Below, in pieces: positions 5,796 to 22,421 of a stretch of DNA of 27,184 nucleotides. Every line of letters starts with the position of its first letter. Position 1 is the first letter of the stretch. A program made the position numbers and the translations under genes. Location of the stretch: positions 1 to 27,184 of the IMG/VR virus record IMGVR_UViG_3300028569_000145, one strand, 5' to 3'. The DNA comes from a virus. Under the pieces are notes generated by a model. The model ran no database searches, had not been told where the DNA came from, and saw nothing but the letters and a program-made list of their open reading frames with translations.

Positions 5796-5802
5796 TATTT
5801 AG
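5796..5802 (-). promoter_or_regulatory. CTAAATA box (late-type promoter) before the 195-aa gene
   Basis: Minus-strand CTAAATA lies between the capsid-gene terminator and the ATG at 5791, with 4 nt (CACG) between box and ATG. This matches the core of T4 late promoters. No Shine-Dalgarno is available, so transcription would begin at or next to the start codon. Confidence 0.6.
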
Positions 5803-8677: not shown

Positions 8678-10945
8678 TCAACTGTACACCTTGGGATTGC
8701 CTGATGCCATGGCCATGTAGTCCAGTTGTGATTCAGCATCAAGGCCTTCCATTTCAGCCTTGATCTGTGCTGCTTTGGTGGCATTGAGATCAGCCACGCT
8801 GAGGCGTTGTTTGTCTTCAGGTGAGGGTTCTCGGTTGCCTTGAGCTTTTTGTCCTGCTTCAATCATGGCCCGAACTTCATCATCGCTGGGCAAGTAGGTG
8901 TCTGCTTCTTTCACGCCCAGCACATACAGGGTGTCAGCAAAGGGTTTCTTGATCTTGACATAGATTTCTGGTGTGAGCGTGCCGGCTTGCACCATGGCTT
9001 GTGTGGCCTGATAGAGATCGGTCTGACACTTCTGAATGATCTGCAGGCGACCCAGGGCATTTTCCTGACTCATCATGCCCAGAGCCAGTTCGGTTTGAAT
9101 GTGTTTGCGATCACAGAAGTTCATGTCATCCCAGGCCAGGTAGTCCAGGAACTCTGGCTTGCGATCAGGGTGATACTTGGCAGCCATTTTCTTCACACCA
9201 TAATCATCACCATATTGAATCAGGGTACGCCACACCAACCAAATGGCTTCTTTCAATCCATCAGCGGCATTGCGCACTGTGTTGTCTTGAATGATCTGAT
9301 TGGGTGTAAGAGCCATTTGAAGTTTGATACCTGAGTTGCCAGGTGCCATAACTTCAGGATTAAACACATCACTCGGCGTGGTCATGCCCACCATGGCCAT
9401 GGTATCTTGTTGGATACGATTCATGGCCACTTCCAGGAACTGCAGATTGCCCGAGGGAGGAGGCAACTGATAGATGTCCTTGGCAGGATCAAATTTTGAA
9501 TCAAGAATGAATATGGCTGACTCACCATCTTGCAGCATTTCAAAGTCTAGACGATCTGGTTTGACACCAATACGCGGAGTGGCTGTGAGCAAACCCAGTT
9601 GTATTTCGGCTCGGGCAGCTGAGGTGTTGTATTCCTGCATGGGAATCACACTCTCAGCAATGCTCATGCCATAGAAGTTGCCAGGTAGTGGCTTGGGACA
9701 CATGTTAGCCACAGGAATGAATTCAACTTCACGGGCTGATATGATGTATGATCCTGAATAGATCAGTTCTACCAGTTCCAGTTCACCGTCGCCGTCAATG
9801 TCGTAGCGGTTCCATACAGTAACAATGGAGATCTGGCGTGAATCAGGATCTGCTGACGCAGCCGAACTCACTGGTATGCCCATGACAGGCACTGAATCTC
9901 TGGCATGAATGGCTAGGTTGTTCAACACTGAACCTGCCTGATATGCACCGTTCATGTTGTATTCAGCAAAGCGTTCAAAAGCCGGCAGGTCAATGTCGGG
10001 ATACAGTTCTGTGGCTTCTTGTATGGTCATGGGGTCATAGTAGCCACAGAAAGGTTGGTCTTTCATTTCTGGCACAGTGGGGTCACAAATCCAAAAATGC
10101 TGTGCAATGGGATTGAATTTGATTTTTATATTGTAGCCAGTGAGTTTGTACCGGGCTGTGTAAATGGTGTTGCGATTCACAGCTTCGGTCAGGATGTCTT
10201 GTTGACCCTGAACACTCTGAGCCTGTTGTTCCTGTTGCATGGCTTCCAGGTCCATGTCATCTGATCCCAGACCCTCCAGCAGGGCATCCACCTGGCCCTG
10301 CATCTGAGTCTGTTCTTGATCACCCAGCAACTGTTGAACTTCGGCCATGACTGCTGGCATTCTAACTCCGGTGCGTCTGCGAGTCTGTCTCAGTGCTGTG
10401 AGTCCAGAATCTGCTGCCTGTTGCTCAAATGCCCGGAGCTCATCTTGTGTGCCAGAAGTTTCCACATAGCGTATGACTTGTTCACGCACCGGCATGATCA
10501 TCATCATGCCATTTTTGTGCATGTTGGCATCCATGACCCAGCGTTCTAGAATAAAGTGCGGATCATTCATTTCGTTTATGACATGGCTCACCATGTTGGT
10601 GGCCTGGTGCGCTGCTGCTTCATCTTCGGTGCCATCAGCCACAAATTCAAAACTGACTTCACCATTGGGCGCCAGGCCCTTGGTGATCACTGCTGTGGCA
10701 TAATCTACCACAGGTTTTACTGAAGGGTGAATGTAATCAATGCCATTCACCGGTGCTGTGGAGTCTGTCACAGCAAGACACAGGTAGTGATAGTCACTGG
10801 CTCGATTCACAGCATTCTTGGTGCCAAGATAACGCAGATAACTGGCCATTTTGACATCCATGAGATTCTTCATTCTCACAAAGTTGGCATTGATTTTGCG
10901 ATTCTGATTGATTTCATTGACTGGAATATTTTTAATATCTAGCAT
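8678..10945 (-). CDS. portal protein, P22-like (755 aa)
   Basis: A large portal with the P22-type layout: a helical N-terminus (INANFVRMKNLMDVKMASYLRYLG), a wing region with YIHPSVKPVVDYATAVITKGLAPNGEVSFEF and NDPHFILERWVMDANMHKNGM, then a long Gln-rich linker (residues about 190-260). The core follows, with QHFWICDPTVPEMKDQPFCGY, WNRYDIDGDGELELVELIYSG, PLPGNFYGMSIAESVIPMQEYN and LTATPRIGVKPDRLD. The C-terminal helical part resembles the P22 barrel region but is shorter. It would form the dodecameric ring through which DNA is packaged and ejected. Start ATG 10945 has AGGA about 11 nt upstream and the TCAATCGCTAAATAAT promoter box. Length and motifs fit the family well. Confidence 0.88.
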   Translation of the reverse strand: MLDIKNIPVNEINQNRKINANFVRMKNLMDVKMASYLRYLGTKNAVNRASDYHYLCLAVTDSTAPVNGIDYIHPSVKPVVDYATAVITKGLAPNGEVSFEFVADGTEDEAAAHQATNMVSHVINEMNDPHFILERWVMDANMHKNGMMMIMPVREQVIRYVETSGTQDELRAFEQQAADSGLTALRQTRRRTGVRMPAVMAEVQQLLGDQEQTQMQGQVDALLEGLGSDDMDLEAMQQEQQAQSVQGQQDILTEAVNRNTIYTARYKLTGYNIKIKFNPIAQHFWICDPTVPEMKDQPFCGYYDPMTIQEATELYPDIDLPAFERFAEYNMNGAYQAGSVLNNLAIHARDSVPVMGIPVSSAASADPDSRQISIVTVWNRYDIDGDGELELVELIYSGSYIISAREVEFIPVANMCPKPLPGNFYGMSIAESVIPMQEYNTSAARAEIQLGLLTATPRIGVKPDRLDFEMLQDGESAIFILDSKFDPAKDIYQLPPPSGNLQFLEVAMNRIQQDTMAMVGMTTPSDVFNPEVMAPGNSGIKLQMALTPNQIIQDNTVRNAADGLKEAIWLVWRTLIQYGDDYGVKKMAAKYHPDRKPEFLDYLAWDDMNFCDRKHIQTELALGMMSQENALGRLQIIQKCQTDLYQATQAMVQAGTLTPEIYVKIKKPFADTLYVLGVKEADTYLPSDDEVRAMIEAGQKAQGNREPSPEDKQRLSVADLNATKAAQIKAEMEGLDAESQLDYMAMASGNPKVYS

Positions 10946-12569: not shown

Positions 12570-14183
12570 TCAAGCAGCAGGATTATATGATTTCTTCCAG
12601 GCAGGCAAATTGGTCTCATCTCTAGTTCTGTAGACTTGATCGCGTTGTGCTGCCATGCGCTGTCGTGGAGAGAGATTGTCCCAGGGTTCAGCAATGCCCT
12701 GCAAACAGGCCAACAAGGCGTATCGTGCTGAGTCAATGCAGTCGTCTGGATCACTAAAGCGACCTTGAGTGTCCACAAAGTAGTTCTGTGCTTCACGCAA
12801 GAACTCCACACAGTTTTCATTGATCATGAGACTGCCCACTTCCAACATCTGTCGCATTTGGTTGATGCCATAACTTTTGTGATTGGTGGTGCGCCCTTGT
12901 GGGTCTGGTGGGTTCATGATGGCACCTGCGATCACATTGAGTTCGTACTGTTCAAACAATTCTCTAATACTGGTGCTGCTCATGGTGTAGCGTCCCGGCG
13001 TGGAAGCATCAGCTGGCAGCACAATGGGTGTGCCATGCACTTCGGGTCGCAGCAAGTGATTGATGTACTGTGTGGGCACAGCTTCTTCCACACCCTGCAC
13101 CACTATTTGTCGATGCAGCCAGGCTGACCGTTCATATGGATCCCAGTACATGAGACTGATCACTGTTTTGTCGTTGACCAAGCCCAGGTCAAGAGCAATC
13201 ACACGCTGGATGTTGCGCATTTCTTGGAATGGAATGTCACCAGTCCGATATGTGGGCCAGTCACGCAGCTGAAACACAGCACCTCGGCCCATGACAGGTT
13301 TGCCTTGCATACGAGCATCGCGTTCGTGTGGCAGGTAATCTCTGCTGAGTTGTTCGCGTGTGGATCGCAGCAGGAATGGTTCGCCCCAGAGATCATATTC
13401 AGGCACATCATCCCAGCTCACACGCACATAGTCATAACCTTGTTCACGGTTCCAGAACTTGCTGACAAGGCCATTGAGACCTTTGAGTGGTGTGAAACTG
13501 CACAGGATCCGGCCCTGTGTGGTGGCAGTGCGTGTGACTATTTCTGAAAAGAAGTCATCTGGTGGCTGCTCGTCAAACACAGCAAGGTCCAATTTGAAAC
13601 CCTGTAACTGACGCACTTCCTGTGTGTAGTTGGCAAACAACAAGTAGCTGCGGCCGCCTGCACTGTGCAGGATCTCTACACCAATACAGTTGGCACCATC
13701 ACTGCGCATGGTGTCTTGAACAATGGCTGACCTGGGAATGGCACCTGTGCCCATGTGATCACGCAGTTTGACATCTGGTGTGCCCAGCAGTTCTTGTTGC
13801 AGTACCAAGGCCACCTGACTCCAACCTTCACCTGCTACCATCACAGTCACGGGTCTGTCGTAGCGGTCACCTGACCACCACTCAGGATATTGACCAGTAA
13901 GGTGCATGGCGGTTTCATAACAGGTGCTCACAGTTTTACCAATACGGTTGGCAGCAAGAATGCCTCGACGGTCACTGCGAGTGTTGAAGAACCGTAATTG
14001 ATGCTCAAATGGTCTGAAGTAACGCAGTTGATTGTACTGCATGTCTTCACTCACAGCAATGGAGAGATCACGCAGGGTTGACTGCGTGTCATGATCAAAT
14101 TGTTTTAGTGCAGCAGGTGTGAGGTCATGCTGATCACACACATATCTCACAGCCCGCCGCATGAGCACGGCAGGATCCAGCAT
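12570..14183 (-). CDS. terL: terminase large subunit (537 aa)
   Basis: The ATPase domain has Walker A AANRIGKT (residues 77-84), Walker B LDLAVFDEQ with D203 and E204, and the coupling motif CSFTPLKG (about 228-235). The nuclease domain begins with RVIALDLGL (D331), and the C-terminal DDCIDSARYALLA carries further acidic metal-binding residues. HLTGQYPEWWSGDRYDRP after Walker A is typical of one branch of phage terminases. I chose ATG 14183, which overlaps the upstream stop as TGATG; the longer frame to 14234 lies within the preceding gene. It powers DNA packaging through the portal and cuts the concatemer. Length is normal. The cutting mode (headful or site-specific) cannot be read from this. 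Confidence 0.92.
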   Translation of the reverse strand: MLDPAVLMRRAVRYVCDQHDLTPAALKQFDHDTQSTLRDLSIAVSEDMQYNQLRYFRPFEHQLRFFNTRSDRRGILAANRIGKTVSTCYETAMHLTGQYPEWWSGDRYDRPVTVMVAGEGWSQVALVLQQELLGTPDVKLRDHMGTGAIPRSAIVQDTMRSDGANCIGVEILHSAGGRSYLLFANYTQEVRQLQGFKLDLAVFDEQPPDDFFSEIVTRTATTQGRILCSFTPLKGLNGLVSKFWNREQGYDYVRVSWDDVPEYDLWGEPFLLRSTREQLSRDYLPHERDARMQGKPVMGRGAVFQLRDWPTYRTGDIPFQEMRNIQRVIALDLGLVNDKTVISLMYWDPYERSAWLHRQIVVQGVEEAVPTQYINHLLRPEVHGTPIVLPADASTPGRYTMSSTSIRELFEQYELNVIAGAIMNPPDPQGRTTNHKSYGINQMRQMLEVGSLMINENCVEFLREAQNYFVDTQGRFSDPDDCIDSARYALLACLQGIAEPWDNLSPRQRMAAQRDQVYRTRDETNLPAWKKSYNPAA

Positions 14184-14506
14184 CAACCAGCCTCGTTGAT
14201 GGGCCAGTGCTGGCGAACCTGTTCCAGGTGCCACAGTGCAGCAGCAAGACTGGCCAATTCACCAGGCTGTGCAGGCCAAGTATCAGGTGCGCTGAGATCC
14301 GTGCCAGGCGGCTTGTTGAGACAATACTGTAGTCGTTCCATGACAAGTCGCATGACATGTTCCAGTTGTCCTGGCATGCGAGCCACAAAGGCTTCACGAT
14401 TCACAGCATTGACCTTTTGCATGATCTTGGTGTCATCCGCACGCCGTGTTTCCACTGCGTTGTGAATCATGCCATCACGCAGGTGGGGATTCGGAGCCGA
14501 GGTCAT
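14183..14506 (-). CDS. small protein directly upstream of terL (107 aa), unknown
   Basis: Joined to both neighbours: its ATG overlaps the upstream stop as ATGA and its TGA overlaps the terL start as TGATG, so the three are translated together. The protein is soluble and helical, with RADDTKIMQKVNAVNREAFVA, PGQLEHVMRLVMERLQYCLN and an Ala/Leu-rich C-terminal helix (GELASLAAALWHLEQVRQHW). Position would fit a small terminase, but no DNA-binding motif is visible and a better candidate lies at 16864-17223. It may be a packaging accessory. Family not recognised. Confidence 0.75.
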   Translation of the reverse strand: MTSAPNPHLRDGMIHNAVETRRADDTKIMQKVNAVNREAFVARMPGQLEHVMRLVMERLQYCLNKPPGTDLSAPDTWPAQPGELASLAAALWHLEQVRQHWPINEAG

Positions 14507-17837: not shown

Positions 17838-17844
17838 TTAAATA
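17838..17844 (+). promoter_or_regulatory. TTAAATA box, divergent from the sigma-70 promoter
   Basis: Plus-strand TTAAATA, then CACAC, then ATG at 17850: the same 5-nt spacing as the leaderless minus-strand genes. It lies 10 nt from the -35 box of the opposite promoter. Confidence 0.58.
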
Positions 17845-18445: not shown

Positions 18446-18701
18446 GTATGTCTGTCATGAGTTCTTCACTGCTGTAGTATTCACCCCGGCGACTCTTGCG
18501 AAACTGCTTTAATGGCGCACTGTACCAGGCATCTATCTCGGCTGTGTGACCACACACCTGCATGATTTCCTGTGCTCGTTCTGTGAACCAGGTCAGCATG
18601 CGTTGATGTTCGGCTGCTGACTGTTTGTAGTACACAGTGGCATAGGTCACACCGGGTCTGGGTGTCATTGTTCGTGTGCTTTTATAGCGGAATTGTGGCA
18701 T
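18288..18701 (-). CDS. unknown protein (137 aa) coupled to the polymerase gene
   Basis: I chose ATG 18701 (MPQFRYKSTRTM) because AGGAGGAG lies about 7 nt ahead of it; the longer frame starts inside the polymerase gene. It overlaps the polymerase stop by 20 nt, so translation is coupled. The protein is helical, with HQRMLTWFTERAQEIMQVCG, IDAWYSAPLKQFRKSRRGEYYSSEELM and LSLGRDLPDAMLGRWNRWCQGTPWEIEMV. No known motif is visible. Tight coupling suggests it works with the polymerase, perhaps as a partner or accessory subunit, which is inference only. Confidence 0.78.
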   Translation of the reverse strand: MPQFRYKSTRTMTPRPGVTYATVYYKQSAAEHQRMLTWFTERAQEIMQVCGHTAEIDAWYSAPLKQFRKSRRGEYYSSEELMTDILTQLSLGRDLPDAMLGRWNRWCQGTPWEIEMVPDAAAANDFWQIFHEPATMS

Positions 18702-20238
18702 GGGTATTCTCCTCCTGGGTTTCAAAATAAGGATCAAGTTCTGGGTCATATTCCTGTGTGCCGTCATGTCCGGCACCGGTGTAATGATCTGTTCGGGCTG
18801 CGGAATCCCAGCGCCAATGGCGTTGAGCGATCACTGCTTCTTGCGGATCATAAAATGGATCTGTGGGCAACACAGGCGCTTCCCAGCCATATGCACCATG
18901 CTCCTGATGTTCTAGGCGGTAGAACTCACCAAACGCTCTGATGCCAGCACGAAATTCTGCCAGCTGCACTGGTCTGCGTGTGTAGATGCAGTCATGCACA
19001 GTAAGCAACACTTCACGATCTTCACAGAACTGTTCAGCCCAGTCCAAGATTTCTCGTTCAGCATGTTGATACAAATAACTCACAACTGAATTGCCTTTGA
19101 GTTTCCGGCCGCCCTTTTCCCACAGCTCAGGCACTGATTTTAATTCAGCTGCCATGTTTACTCGAGCCAGGGCCACAATGGCATCATTCATGCTGTTTTG
19201 TTCTTGAACAAACTCCTGCACCCAGGCGTCGGTCATGGCACGATCCAGTCGGTTTTTTGCTGTGATAATCTGTGCCAGGGCTGGCTTTTGGTATCGACCA
19301 TCAGCAACATATCCCGCTCCACGCAGCGGAGCACCAAATCCAATGGCAGTAACAAACTCTTTAACAAGTTTAACAGCCCAGTCTTGTGTGGTATCAAACA
19401 CAGCCTGTGCCAGTCGCTGTCGAATGGCCTGTTTGTGATCCAAATATTCCAGTGTGGCTGGCATGGAGATTGTGGTGTTGTGTACAGCACAGATCTGTTG
19501 GAACCAGCTGAGCTTCCAGGCAAACACACTTGATTCAATATCATATTCATGACAGCGACCCAGCGCCGCATGTCGCACTATTTTGGGTGTGTTCTGCAGA
19601 TTGGGCCCTTTGTAGTATCTGCGACCAAATGCACTTTCATTGCGAATCTGCAACAACTCTCCACCACCAGCCTGGGCCAACATCCAGATTTTTTGTGCAT
19701 GCTTGAGATTGCGATCCCATTCTTCAATCAAGGCCTGTGATGCACGGGGATTGTCGCGATCATTTGCTAGATTTGATCGGATGTAGTTGCCAAGACTTTT
19801 CATATCAATGTGTGCAATATCATAATCATTGGTGAGGATTTCTTGTGAGAATTGTCCAGGGTATATTTCTTTCCAGAGTTCTTCTGGCGTACCAGCTGCC
19901 ATGATCACATCTTCCATGGTGTATCGTGCTTGTGCCATGCTTAGTTCCTTGATTAAATTGTTACCAGTTGAGATTATATCAAAAATGCGTTCGGGAAACG
20001 ACTGAAATGTCTGCCAGACATAGAATCGCTTGCCCTTGATCATGATATCAGCAAGAGTGTTTTGAAGTTGAGTTTGGTTGATGTAATACCTGGATCCAGA
20101 TTGACTGGTGAAGTTATCACGCAACATTTGTAGGGCACACAACCAAATGTATTGTTGTGTGAATTTTTGAGCCTTGGCTGCGGTGCATCCTGTGGCTTCT
20201 TGAAAGCGAAGTTCAAGTCGAGTGCGGTTGATTGTCAT
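18682..20238 (-). CDS. compact divergent family A polymerase-like protein (518 aa)
   Basis: Start chosen at ATG 20238 (AAGGAA ahead). Family A motifs occur in order. FGRRYYKGPNLQNTP (residues about 204-218) aligns without gaps to GRLSSSDPNLQNIP of Taq, with R206 matching Arg573. Motif A is EYDIESSVF, with D233 as catalytic Asp. Motif B is KEFVTAIGFG, with K293 matching Lys663. Motif C is TVHDCIY, with D416 matching Asp785. Distances D-to-K (60) and K-to-D (123) resemble Taq (53 and 122). The steric-gate Glu is Val (238), the Phe667 position is Thr (297), the Tyr671 position is Phe (301) and the Glu after HD is Cys. The N-terminal 200 residues are helical and show no 3'-5' exonuclease motifs. 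It may be a DNA polymerase, a primase-like enzyme or an RNA polymerase; substrate is uncertain. Confidence 0.75.
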   Translation of the reverse strand: MTINRTRLELRFQEATGCTAAKAQKFTQQYIWLCALQMLRDNFTSQSGSRYYINQTQLQNTLADIMIKGKRFYVWQTFQSFPERIFDIISTGNNLIKELSMAQARYTMEDVIMAAGTPEELWKEIYPGQFSQEILTNDYDIAHIDMKSLGNYIRSNLANDRDNPRASQALIEEWDRNLKHAQKIWMLAQAGGGELLQIRNESAFGRRYYKGPNLQNTPKIVRHAALGRCHEYDIESSVFAWKLSWFQQICAVHNTTISMPATLEYLDHKQAIRQRLAQAVFDTTQDWAVKLVKEFVTAIGFGAPLRGAGYVADGRYQKPALAQIITAKNRLDRAMTDAWVQEFVQEQNSMNDAIVALARVNMAAELKSVPELWEKGGRKLKGNSVVSYLYQHAEREILDWAEQFCEDREVLLTVHDCIYTRRPVQLAEFRAGIRAFGEFYRLEHQEHGAYGWEAPVLPTDPFYDPQEAVIAQRHWRWDSAARTDHYTGAGHDGTQEYDPELDPYFETQEENTHATIPL

Positions 20239-20256
20239 GTTGGTTCCTTTCACTAT

Positions 20257-20265: not shown

Positions 20266-20329
20266 TTTCACGGAATAAGTCAATAGTTTCTGGAGAAAAG
20301 CAGTCCGTAAAATGGCATTTTTCACGGAA
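20266..20329. repeat. TTTCACGGAA direct repeats plus inverted copy upstream of polymerase
   Basis: TTTCACGGAA occurs at 20266-20275 and again at 20320-20329. TCCGTAAAA at 20304-20312 is an inverted near-copy, and with the second repeat it forms a 9-bp stem with one bulged C. Three copies in 64 bp directly upstream of the polymerase promoter could be operator sites or replication iterons. Confidence 0.55.
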
Positions 20330-20355
20330 CTATTTGATAGTAAGATGTAGCAGTT

Positions 20356-20392: not shown

Positions 20393-20436
20393 ATGCCAGC
20401 TTCTCGAGGGGAAAATCAGGTGTTTTTTTGTCAGGC

Positions 20437-20444
20437 AATAAATA
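20437..20444 (+). promoter_or_regulatory. AATAAATA box before the structured RNA
   Basis: Plus-strand AATAAATA. With the 4-5 nt spacing seen at leaderless genes, transcription would begin at 20449-20450, the first bases of the RNA's closing stem. Confidence 0.55.
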
Positions 20445-20448
20445 CATC

Positions 20449-20632
20449 ATCGCTGGTGTGTGGCCAATATCAATCGCGATGTTGGCCATAAACGCAGAGA
20501 CAGGTTGAGTCTCCCTCAATGACCCGTAGGTAAAGTGCCGGGCCACTTTTGAGTTCCTTTCAAGTTTGGACTACTTCAACCCGCACCAGCGATACCTGAT
20601 CAACAACCGGCCCTGGGCCGGTTTCATTTGTG
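20449..20632 (+). ncRNA. predicted structured small RNA with own promoter and terminator
   Basis: A 12-bp closing stem (one G-U) pairs ATCGCTGGTGTG at 20449-20460 with CGCACCAGCGAT at 20582-20593. Inside, hairpin 1 is an 11-bp stem (20461-20471 with 20478-20488, one G-U) with a 6-nt loop and stacks directly on the closing stem. Hairpin 2 has two exclusive forms, GAGAC/GTCTC (20497-20513) or TTGAG/CTCAA (20505-20519). Hairpin 3 is AAAGTG/CACTTT (20532-20549) with a CCGGGC loop. A weak fourth hairpin follows. The 8-bp GC hairpin at 20605-20623 would end it. No convincing plus-strand gene overlaps. It resembles no tRNA, tmRNA or hammerhead. The function is unknown; candidates are a regulatory, packaging (pRNA-like) or host-targeting RNA. 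Based on hand folding only. Confidence 0.55.
20605..20626. terminator. GC-rich hairpin ending the RNA and/or the HNH gene
   Basis: AACCGGCC pairs with GGCCGGTT around CTG, an 8-bp perfect stem, followed on the plus strand by TCATTTG. It overlaps or abuts the HNH stop codon, so it could serve both the plus-strand RNA and the minus-strand HNH gene. Confidence 0.65.
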
Positions 20633-20977
20633 ATCACGCCGACGCAATCGGCGCTGTAGATGTATTTCGTAGTGATCACCCAGGGTGAGATGTTGGGGAT
20701 TGCAACAGCCTGCACGGCCACAGGTGTGTATCACAAACTCTCTGGGCGAAAGAGGTCGATCCCAGTGAATCCTAGCAGCCACTCTATGCACTGTGGTCAT
20801 GATCTTGGCACCATCACTGCGTCGCCAGGCACCCATCATGCCATAGCCCTGACGATGTTGTGCAGCCGCCCACAAAATGCAATCTGAATTGGCGTCAGGC
20901 ACCTGATGTCTGCGATAGTAGTCTTCAAGTATTTCCAAGTCATGTACCTGGGTTCGGGGTTGTGGTCGTCTGGCCAT
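20624..20977 (-). CDS. HNH endonuclease (117 aa)
   Basis: I chose ATG 20977 (MARRPQPRTQ) because AGGA lies about 8 nt ahead; the longer frame runs into the divergent promoter region. The C-terminal half shows the beta-beta-alpha metal HNH pattern VIHTCGRAGCCNPQHLTLG, with H84, C86, C91, C92, N93 and H96, and an upstream TTVHRVAARIHW helix. This is the form common in phage HNH homing or nicking enzymes (..H.C....CCNP.HL..G..). The N-terminus is Arg-rich and may bind DNA. Lying beside the polymerase and a non-coding region, it could be a free-standing homing endonuclease that protects this locus, or it could act in DNA processing. Confidence 0.85.
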   Translation of the reverse strand: MARRPQPRTQVHDLEILEDYYRRHQVPDANSDCILWAAAQHRQGYGMMGAWRRSDGAKIMTTVHRVAARIHWDRPLSPREFVIHTCGRAGCCNPQHLTLGDHYEIHLQRRLRRRDHK

Positions 20978-20996: not shown

Positions 20997-21004
20997 TATT
21001 TATT
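20997..21004 (-). promoter_or_regulatory. AATAAATA box before HNH gene
   Basis: Minus-strand AATAAATA, 19 nt ahead of the HNH ATG, with AGGA between. It abuts the plus-strand TATAAGTA box, giving a compact divergent promoter pair. Confidence 0.55.
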
Positions 21005-21011
21005 ATAAGTA
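21004..21011 (+). promoter_or_regulatory. TATAAGTA box before the plus-strand operon
   Basis: TATAAGTA differs from the T4 late octamer at one base. Five nt (TGTAC) separate it from ATG 21017, the same spacing as at the leaderless genes. Confidence 0.45.
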
Positions 21012-21016
21012 TGTAC

Positions 21017-21298
21017 ATGAAACCAAATAAGTGGAAAACTGGACCAGATCCCATGCTGCATCGCATGTATGTGGCATTTGGATATCATCGTGTGACATCT
21101 AGACTGCGTGGCGAAGGCTGGCATCTTGACTGGGAGACCTGGCGTGATCTGTGGCTACCTCACTGGCCACAACGAGGTCGCACTGCCCAGAGCCTGTGCA
21201 TGTGTCGCTGTGACATTGAAGGTGACTGGAGTGTACACAATGTGGAAATCATCACACGCCAAGAACATGGTCGTCGTGTGCGAGAGTACTACCAATGA
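21017..21298 (+). CDS. small HNH-like conserved phage protein (93 aa), leaderless
   Basis: The ATG at 21017 lies 5 nt after TATAAGTA; 21011 is an in-frame alternative inside the box. Visible segments are WKTGPDPMLHRMYVAFGYHR, WHLDWETWRDLWLPHW and a C-terminal DWSVHNVEIITRQEHGRRV. The last part, with Trp-Ser-x-x-Asn-Val-x-(Ile/Leu) and a terminal His, resembles the end of HNH/AP2-type phage endonuclease modules. One CMCRC cluster precedes it. I recall similar small proteins in podoviruses without known function. It begins an operon and is joined to the acetyltransferase by ATGA. Function unproven. Confidence 0.72.
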   Translation: MKPNKWKTGPDPMLHRMYVAFGYHRVTSRLRGEGWHLDWETWRDLWLPHWPQRGRTAQSLCMCRCDIEGDWSVHNVEIITRQEHGRRVREYYQ

Positions 21299-21789
21299 CA
21301 TGGTCATGGCATTCAACCACAGGTGTAGATGTGCAGCCCATTGTGAACATGGCTGTGAGTCATTTTCAATGTGAAGTAGATCAGCTGTTTGAGCCGGATC
21401 CCTTGGTGTATGCCAGGAATCTCACACTGGCCACCGTGGAACAATTTTACAATCCTGGTAGTCAGCTGTTAAAAGTTGCTAAAGAACACGAAACTCAGCG
21501 CATCTTGGCTTATACCTGGGCTATCTCCAACGAAAAAATGCCATGGTCAGATGAGGCCATGATCTGTGTGCGAATGGCGCATGTTGACTTGTCACTGCCT
21601 GTACGACAGAGATTACGCCTGATCACAGGCATGATTGTGTTGTGGGAAACCTGGGCAAGAGAATCGGGCATTGACATGGTGTGTTCAACCACCATGCGGC
21701 GTGATCAAACAGGATTTTTGGACATACATCGTCGACTGGGTTACGATGTGCGCGGCAGTTTGGCCTACAAAAGATTGGAAATCACATGA
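21295..21789 (+). CDS. GNAT-family acetyltransferase-like protein (164 aa)
   Basis: The C-terminal half has the GNAT pattern: MICVRMAHVDLSLPVRQR (strand 4), then a helix RLRLITGMIVLWETWARESGIDMVC where acetyl-CoA usually binds, then GFLDIHRRLGYDVRGSLAYKR, the typical strand 5-helix-strand ending. The classic Q/RxxGxG/A loop is not clear, so activity is uncertain. Phages often carry such short GNATs among virion genes. It overlaps both neighbours by ATGA, so all three plus-strand genes form one translationally coupled unit. The target could be a phage or host protein; unknown. Confidence 0.62.
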   Translation: MTWSWHSTTGVDVQPIVNMAVSHFQCEVDQLFEPDPLVYARNLTLATVEQFYNPGSQLLKVAKEHETQRILAYTWAISNEKMPWSDEAMICVRMAHVDLSLPVRQRLRLITGMIVLWETWARESGIDMVCSTTMRRDQTGFLDIHRRLGYDVRGSLAYKRLEIT

Positions 21790-22421
21790 GTTATATTGTG
21801 GCTTCAGTGCCGCCTGTGAAATGTTTTGTGCGTCGTGAGTTCTTGTACAACTTTACTCGGGGTCATGGCGAATTGGAACCTGCTGTTTGGGTCAGTATCA
21901 AGGCTCTGCGTGGACAGGTGTTTAGAATTGAAAGTCTGTTGCCTGCTTACGGTGCCTTGTATGACAAATTGCCCATACATGCTTATGTGTGGCACCGGGT
22001 GCCACACGGCGACCTGCCCATTGACACCCTGCAGTTATGGGATTGCATGGGCTACAATTTCACAGTGATTGAAAAGATTGGCCTGCGCAATCTAGGTGTA
22101 AAGTTCCTGGGCAAGGATCACGCCTGGCATTTTGGTACCTACATGTTCACTGTGGACTTTTGTGCAGATGGTCTGGATGTGGACACTGGCTTCTCAGAAC
22201 AAGCAGAAGAACACAAAAGCTTCAACTTTATTCGATTAGAAAATGGGCAGTTTGCTATTCAACCCAACAACCGATGCTTGTGGTATGATCAAAGTCTAGT
22301 GCCTGCAGAAACAAAGACTCCAGACTTTCAGGCTGCACAACACTTGTTCACTGTGGATGGCACACGCAAATGGAGCACAGGATCAGATTGGTTTTACGGC
22401 ATTCACTCTAGGCCAGAGTAG
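21786..22421 (+). CDS. conserved-type phage protein of unknown function (211 aa)
   Basis: A soluble mixed alpha/beta protein that starts by ATGA overlap with the GNAT gene. It is aromatic-rich: FVRREFLYNFTRGHGELEPAV, YDKLPIHAYVWHRVPHGDLP, LQLWDCMGYNFTVIEKIG, AWHFGTYMFTVDFCADG and a C-terminal KWSTGSDWFYGIHSRPE. Several His and Asp residues are present but no catalytic pattern I know. It ends tail-to-tail with the Dps gene, overlapping it by 14 nt. Coupling to the GNAT implies a shared pathway. No function can be assigned. Confidence 0.8.
   Translation: MSYIVASVPPVKCFVRREFLYNFTRGHGELEPAVWVSIKALRGQVFRIESLLPAYGALYDKLPIHAYVWHRVPHGDLPIDTLQLWDCMGYNFTVIEKIGLRNLGVKFLGKDHAWHFGTYMFTVDFCADGLDVDTGFSEQAEEHKSFNFIRLENGQFAIQPNNRCLWYDQSLVPAETKTPDFQAAQHLFTVDGTRKWSTGSDWFYGIHSRPE
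22405..22419. terminator. weak hairpin at convergent gene ends
   Basis: ACTCT and AGAGT pair around AGGCC exactly where the 211-aa gene and the Dps gene overlap tail-to-tail. No T-run follows on either strand. It may slow transcription from both sides, but the call is weak. Confidence 0.25.

Follow-up and report, generated by a model that had tools for sequence, protein, structure and literature searches.

The window, as the whole stretch of 27,184 nucleotides analysed here is called, is identical with a virus record (27.2 kb). Between two of its genes lies a gap which a first-pass annotation had proposed to encode an undescribed, discrete structured RNA with its own promoter and terminator. 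The question raised by this locus is whether such an RNA exists and, if so, what it might do for the phage.

Genomic setting

The genes which place the gap within the window are as follows.

8678-10945: SU10-type portal
12570-14234: LUZ24-related terminase
18682-20241, - strand: orphan protein gene, 519 aa, flanking the RNA upstream
20624-20977, - strand: small HNH endonuclease, flanking the RNA downstream, convergent
21014-22421, + strand: downstream operon (phrog_16521-like protein, protein with a weak acetyltransferase match, phrog_3704 protein)

The RNA is encoded opposite to both of its immediate neighbours, as had been noted, and the further structural-looking genes of the window lie on the - strand. 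The acetyltransferase assignment in the downstream operon is based on a weak match, in one relative; the operon is followed by a Dps/ferritin-like gene on the - strand. The 519-aa orphan protein has no match in Pfam, PHROGs, PDB sequences or GenBank phages and is unique among the related loci; a polymerase-like VHDCIY motif was read in it by eye only. A 22-bp direct repeat (TTTCACGGAA...) is present at 20266-20287 and 20320-20341 (77% identical, spacing 54), between the promoter of the orphan gene and that of the RNA. The HNH gene adjoins the RNA in only some relatives, and its arrival seems to be linked to a terminator after the RNA and to a new promoter for the downstream operon.

Predicted fold of the RNA

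The closing stem, the hairpin stacked on it, the promoter box and the G+C hairpin downstream were all found where the first-pass annotation had placed them. The following parts are distinguished in the window copy, all on the + strand.

20449-20593, + strand: structured RNA, from closing stem to closing stem, 145 nt (covariance model, covariation, fold z-score)
20449-20460 with 20582-20593, + strand: P1, closing stem of 12 bp; 12 of 12 pairs changed on both sides (25 sequences)
20461-20488, + strand: P2, hairpin of 11 bp (20461-20471/20478-20488) stacked directly on P1; 6 of 6 basal pairs changed on both sides
20489-20497, + strand: joining segment TAAACGCAG, its final G being the first base of P3
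20497-20513, + strand: P3, hairpin GAGAC/GTCTC (20497-20501/20509-20513); pairing at 100%, both sides changed in 4 of 5 stem pairs
20503-20508 with 20576-20581, + strand: pseudoknot of 6 bp between the P3 loop GGTTGA and TCAACC, the 3' strand abutting P1
20515-20519 with 20549-20553, + strand: P4, CTCAA/TTGAG, enclosing P5
20523-20526 with 20539-20542, + strand: P5, CCCG/CGGG, covarying in MAFFT alignment A1
20528-20537, + strand: loop AGGTAAAGTG inside P4/P5
20555-20566, + strand: conserved segment TCCTTTCAAGTT, kept in most members and reading TCCTATAAA in the most divergent

The pseudoknot, the most informative element, was missing from the first-pass fold. Two mutually exclusive pairings had been proposed there for 20497-20519; covariation does not bear out this switchable hairpin and instead gives P3 with the pseudoknot, while 20515-20519 pairs with 20549-20553 to form P4. 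In most relatives a further hairpin, P6, follows TCCTTTCAAGTT; it is absent from the window copy. The P2 loop AATCGC (20472-20477) is the same in most relatives and is replaced by GAAA in some.

The minimum free energy of 20449-20632 on the + strand was -69.4 kcal/mol, against -51.6 +/- 4.3 kcal/mol for dinucleotide shuffles (z -4.15, 0 of 200), so that the fold is better than its shuffles, as had been anticipated. The complementary strand gave a similar score (z -4.28). Since both strands fold alike, energy alone holds no strand information, and the strand is given by the promoter, the terminators and the relatives.

Distribution and comparative support

With the window terminase as query, 80 related contigs were obtained. 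An nhmmer search using the gap alone returned the RNA segment, and mostly nothing else, in nine of the terminase-related loci, in the syntenic gap. A pattern built from two conserved parts gave 34 matches in IMG/VR, comprising further members and chance matches, and covariance model R1 recovered the divergent copies in L066, L067, L042, L174 and L194 (E about 1e-7 to 1e-15). The window RNA scored 127.8 bits against R1 (cmsearch), the window itself being among the 20 model sequences. Twenty-six non-identical phage loci share the fold, and a more divergent form of it is present in two contigs from a lineage unrelated to theirs; the RNA measures 124 to 193 nt in relatives.

On a tree of the nearby acetyltransferase-like gene, here called C0, the RNA is essentially restricted to one clade (3 changes against 19 shuffled). 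No convincing RNA copy was found elsewhere in the contigs of RNA-less relatives, which are fragments, or in a 41.8-kb relative (MW202484). Pattern matches in bacteria (L117-L150) look like chance, and whole-genome searches of 15 of those genomes gave no match. A search of 185 genomes of one class was likewise negative, a result which means little as it had no positive control.

Covariation was tested on a block alignment of 25 members and 29 base pairs. Standard pairs occupied 95.9% of the cells compared with 70.6% after shuffling, where the cells are not independent events because the members are related, and 28 of the 29 pairs had changes on both sides. The covariation score was 0.73, falling to at most 0.15 when the partner was slid by one to three columns. 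Compensatory changes are thus present in the closing stem and in the stacked hairpin, the two places singled out beforehand for this check, and the basal P2 strands, like the 3' strand of the pseudoknot, were placed by best match.

In the case of the pseudoknot, 6 of 6 pairs are kept in all 26 members despite 11 different loop sequences; examples of loop and tail are GGTTGA/TCAACC, GATCGG/CCGATC, GGTGAG/CTCACC and GACTCA/TGAGTC. The 3' strand was taken as the best-matching 6-mer, and a permutation control with equal freedom of placement, in which loops were randomly reassigned, gave a mean of 14.2 and a maximum of 20 of 26 members with 6 of 6 pairs (2000 trials). P4 has weaker support: at least 4 of 5 pairs form in 24 of 26 members; 5 of 5 form in 12 members, where permutation gave 5.3 on average and 11 at most.

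The segment TAAACGCAG is invariant in 25 of 25 aligned sequences, and its invariance is partly a matter of selection as it served as anchor of the pattern searches. The shortest member of the main lineage (L174, 125 nt) retains P1, P2, TAAACGCAG, P3 with the pseudoknot, and P4. GAAA tetraloops occur on the + strand in some members. A protein-coding reading was rejected, any one frame being open in at most 4 of 26 members. A role for TCCTTTCAAG as an anti-Shine-Dalgarno arm was rejected because it reads TCCTATAAA in divergent members. Based on the compensatory changes, the better-than-shuffle fold and the lack of a conserved frame, the claim of an undescribed structured RNA is upheld, and the existence of a structured RNA family is considered virtually certain.

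A second phage lineage

The two contigs of the unrelated lineage, L261 and L309, have hardly any genes in common with the window: one small accessory gene, or two in a further comparison. In both, the portal, capsid and terminase belong to a different type (L261 carries a phrog_145 portal), related to that of small phages such as DSL-LC06 and pelagiphage HTVC111P. No copy of the RNA was found in the GenBank relatives DSL-LC06, HTVC111P and HTVC202P, the latter two being pelagiphages.

In both contigs TAAATA is in place, and P1, P2, TAAACGCAG, P3, the pseudoknot (GTGGA/TCCAC and GTAGC/GCTAC) and a strong terminator are present. The covariance scores are modest (31.8 and 36.7 bits). Both contigs were found through patterns containing TAAACGCAG; the support given by P1, P2, the pseudoknot and the terminator is largely independent of the search pattern.

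Promoter

The box which had been proposed as the promoter of the RNA is the following.

20437-20444, + strand: promoter box AATAAATA, ending 4 nt before the first paired base

It is preceded by an A/T tract (20412-20416) and a T tract (20423-20429). The core TAAATA occurs 11 times in the window where 4.4 are expected, as many being found in 1 of 100 shuffles. Besides the RNA's own box, 9 of the 10 sites closely precede an actual or plausible gene start; an internal ATG follows the site at 17839, and that at 5796 lies within a gene. A consensus was derived from 104 distinct sites at gene starts, taken from the window and the 80 loci (81 records). Counted from the first T of the box, it has an A/T tract spanning -26 to -24 and a T-rich one spanning -15 to -12, followed by (A/C)TAAATA. 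TAAATA starts 8-10 nt before P1 in every member. Scored with both tracts, the window box ranks in the top 2.4% relative to background TAAATA sites; the boxes of all members together have a slight margin over background (p 0.05). On these sequence grounds the box belongs to the general promoter type of these phages, CTAAATA/ATAAATA, and the predicted RNA has its own promoter, as the first-pass annotation had held. The P2 loop AATCGC was considered as a promoter mimic and rejected, since it precedes only 6 of the 104 promoters.

Late promoters read TATAAATA at -13 to -6 in T4 and CTAAATA in Aeh1 (PMC1524935). The box in these phages and its distance to the RNA start are about the same, and there is no -35 box. 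The phages described here, however, are not T4-like (SU10-type portal, LUZ24-related terminase), and in their promoters the box is preceded by A/T tracts at positions -26 and -15. Late use is suggested by the likeness to the T4 and Aeh1 late promoters and by the position before structural genes. Within the window the TAAATA signature spans 5796-26586.

Terminators and gene arrangement

Two elements downstream of the RNA bear on where its transcript would end and how the next operon would be expressed.

20605-20623, + strand: 8-bp G+C hairpin, 11 nt after the last paired base
21004-21011, + strand: TATAAGTA, a sequence match just before the gene starting at 21014

The hairpin is probably a weak terminator, judged by its T-poor tail TCATTTGTGA, and perhaps acts two ways with the convergent HNH gene. 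Strong hairpin-plus-T-run terminators were identified at the matching place in 13 relatives (L009, L033, L042, L087, L090, L095, L096, L097, L100, L101, L104, L261 and L309), while none is present in about 12 leader-type relatives. Of the proposed pair of signals, then, the promoter is backed by a genome-wide box and the terminator by its strong counterparts in relatives, whereas the window terminator itself is weak.

Two arrangements can be distinguished. The main-lineage terminated set comprises the relatives just listed apart from L261 and L309, with L009 counted as L009/L109; here a strong intrinsic terminator lies about 10-40 nt past the RNA, often followed by a convergent HNH gene. A second TAAATA on the + strand, at +610 to +724 and before the C0 operon, was seen in eight loci (seven of the terminated set and L066). 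The window belongs to this arrangement, with a weaker hairpin, and TATAAGTA is the probable, sequence-predicted separate promoter of the operon at 21014-22421. In the leader set, roughly half of the loci (L012, L028, L047, L056, L060, L086, L088, L106, L115, L158, L174 and L194), the operon comes next after the RNA; 12-20 nt separate the RNA from the following gene, and no further TAAATA intervenes. The view of the RNA as a discrete, terminated unit consequently fits many relatives but not this half, in which it stands directly upstream of a gene; in these 12 or so relatives the RNA is at least also a leader.

The chances that the RNA acts in trans are judged to be about even. Given the leader arrangement of about half of the loci, and since the two roles are not exclusive, the foremost rival is a cis-acting leader, similar to an attenuator or riboswitch, which would set readthrough or translation of the acetyltransferase-like late operon, terminated copies being derived or leaky. 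This reading draws on the 12 leader loci, where a T run often follows P1, and on the presence of C0 near the RNA in nearly all main-lineage loci where this is visible. In comparable loci the RNA is on the strand of C0, whose start is about 0.3-0.9 kb from that of the RNA with variable genes between (in L174 C0 is the next gene after the RNA), and in RNA-less relatives the promoter sits right at C0: 49 of 59 loci have TAAATA 24-43 nt ahead of it. Riboswitches are moreover commonly built around a pseudoknotted core which a stem such as P1 closes. Against it, the gene immediately downstream of the RNA differs among loci, the copies in the unrelated lineage are terminated, and in the terminated set a terminator, usually together with a convergent gene, stands between the RNA and the operon, which usually has its own box. 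A riboswitch would be expected always to lie in the 5' leader of the gene it regulates, and in the terminated set the RNA is separated from the operon. Pairing is nevertheless equally kept there: the terminated set alone, to which L066, the window and L261 were added, is 95.6% paired, with 27 of 29 pairs changed on both sides. Selection on the RNA is thus independent of the leader position, which favours a free trans-acting RNA over a riboswitch and leaves the leader, as the sole role, unlikely.

Relation to known RNA families

No Rfam 15 family (4227 families, at the gathering threshold and to E 10) matched over the RNA. BLASTN with three members and with the gap of the window as queries returned no match among 50,697 GenBank phages, and the papers retrieved deal with other families. 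The RNA is probably a new family within the known kind of structured phage noncoding RNAs; a large published collection of RNA structures predicted for viruses and phages may include it, without description.

GOLLD and ROOL are likewise phage-encoded, elaborate, supported by covariation and of unknown function. GOLLD RNA rises during lysis (PMC12286853). GOLLD is, however, several times larger, with many members above 800 nt, and often lies near tRNA genes, whereas the new RNA measures 124-193 nt (145 nt in the window), has no match to either family model, and was found in a window in which a tRNA search gave none. A likeness to c-di-GMP riboswitches found no support in Rfam.

Two other elements were noticed in related phages. 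Polynucleobacter-1 RNA (RF01718) is a structured RNA of Burkholderiales and of fresh water and estuary samples (PMC2864571). Five related phage records carry matches to it below the threshold (best 36.1 bits, cut-off 37), at a distance of 0.1-0.7 kb from the new RNA: L160 (1232-1378) and those behind L309 (of the unrelated lineage), L095, L090 and L033. The matches hint at Burkholderiales hosts and a shared RNA module. As an identity for the new RNA this family was rejected, being a separate, non-overlapping element with no match in the window. Sub-threshold matches to Atu_At1 (RF02496, a Rhizobiales sRNA; up to 53.5 bits, cut-off 60) were found in 15 of 40 related phage records (L173:111-218, L171:2726-2832, L161:2462-2569 and 12 further records) and are absent from the window. 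In the cases checked they lie in the gap between acetyltransferase-like and Dps-like genes and are possibly a second structured phage RNA; since this element is a separate one, elsewhere in the related phages, Atu_At1 was also rejected as the identity of the new RNA.

A self-cleaving ribozyme, or an element for 5'-end processing or stability, could be read into the pseudoknotted core with its invariant single-stranded segment, and where the RNA is a leader, as in half of the loci, it would be well placed to process the operon message. This is improbable, as no Rfam ribozyme family matches, conservation marks no particular bond at either end, and the terminated stand-alone copies leave nothing to process.

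The phi29 pRNA is roughly 120-180 nt long and has its ends closed by a helix. The similar length and closure of the new RNA, its position within a few kb of the genes for terminase and portal and its late-type promoter could speak for a packaging or virion-assembly RNA acting as a scaffold on the portal/terminase motor. A general resemblance in shape to the pRNA had indeed been remarked on at first, but it did not hold up: the pRNA model found no match over 20400-20660 to E 10, and intermolecular loop pairing defines the pRNA where an internal pseudoknot defines the new RNA. The RNA is absent from relatives with close terminases, and the two lineages which carry it, one with an SU10-type portal and a LUZ24-related terminase and the other with a different portal and terminase, have unrelated packaging proteins, which argues against such a role and makes it very improbable.

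A DNA-level palindrome or chance fold, to which the good folding of both strands might point, is refuted as far as sequence can do so by the loop-to-tail pseudoknot kept through 11 loops in 26 of 26 members, the near-fixed distance to the promoter box, the terminators, the + strand GAAA tetraloops and the recurrence in two lineages, and its probability is negligible.

Possible mode of action

For the trans-acting reading, the following course is proposed. Transcription would start at the closing stem, about 4-7 nt past the AATAAATA box; with the spacing of T4 and Aeh1 late promoters the start would fall at around bases 2 to 4 of P1. The RNA would then adopt a compact multibranched core, closed by P1, from which P2, P3 and P4/P5 (and P6 in most relatives) branch. 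Pairing of the P3 loop with the strand beside P1 would form the pseudoknot and lock the core around the invariant TAAACGCAG, and the transcript would often end just after P1. The resulting rigid RNA may bind a host or phage protein or complex during infection, for host takeover or late gene expression, and would not be a switch for the adjacent gene. The sequences themselves bear out the fold and its conservation, the type of promoter, the terminators of many relatives and, within the terminated set, the independence from the adjacent gene; we infer from them transcription as such, its start, end and timing, the action in trans and the existence of a partner.

Taken as a whole, the predicted picture of a new noncoding phage RNA family, made as its own transcript, locked by a pseudoknot and probably acting in trans, seems to us to have an even chance of being right. 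A narrower proposal is advanced tentatively and with some doubt: that this is a small pseudoknotted RNA effector, passed between unrelated lineages as a self-contained late gene and directed in trans at some machinery of host or phage (for takeover, counter-defence or catalysis).

Phages have yielded few noncoding RNAs of comparable complexity, and for most of those no function is known. This one is small enough to be synthesised and probed, and its fold is pinned by strong covariation. Natural variants down to about 125 nt indicate that P5 and P6 are dispensable, while P1, P2, P3 with the pseudoknot, P4 and TAAACGCAG are not. The alignment could enter Rfam. The RNA has also revealed a late-type promoter signature for an uncultured phage group, and, occurring as it does in two unrelated lineages, it is well suited to probing how phages put RNA to use against, or inside, their hosts.
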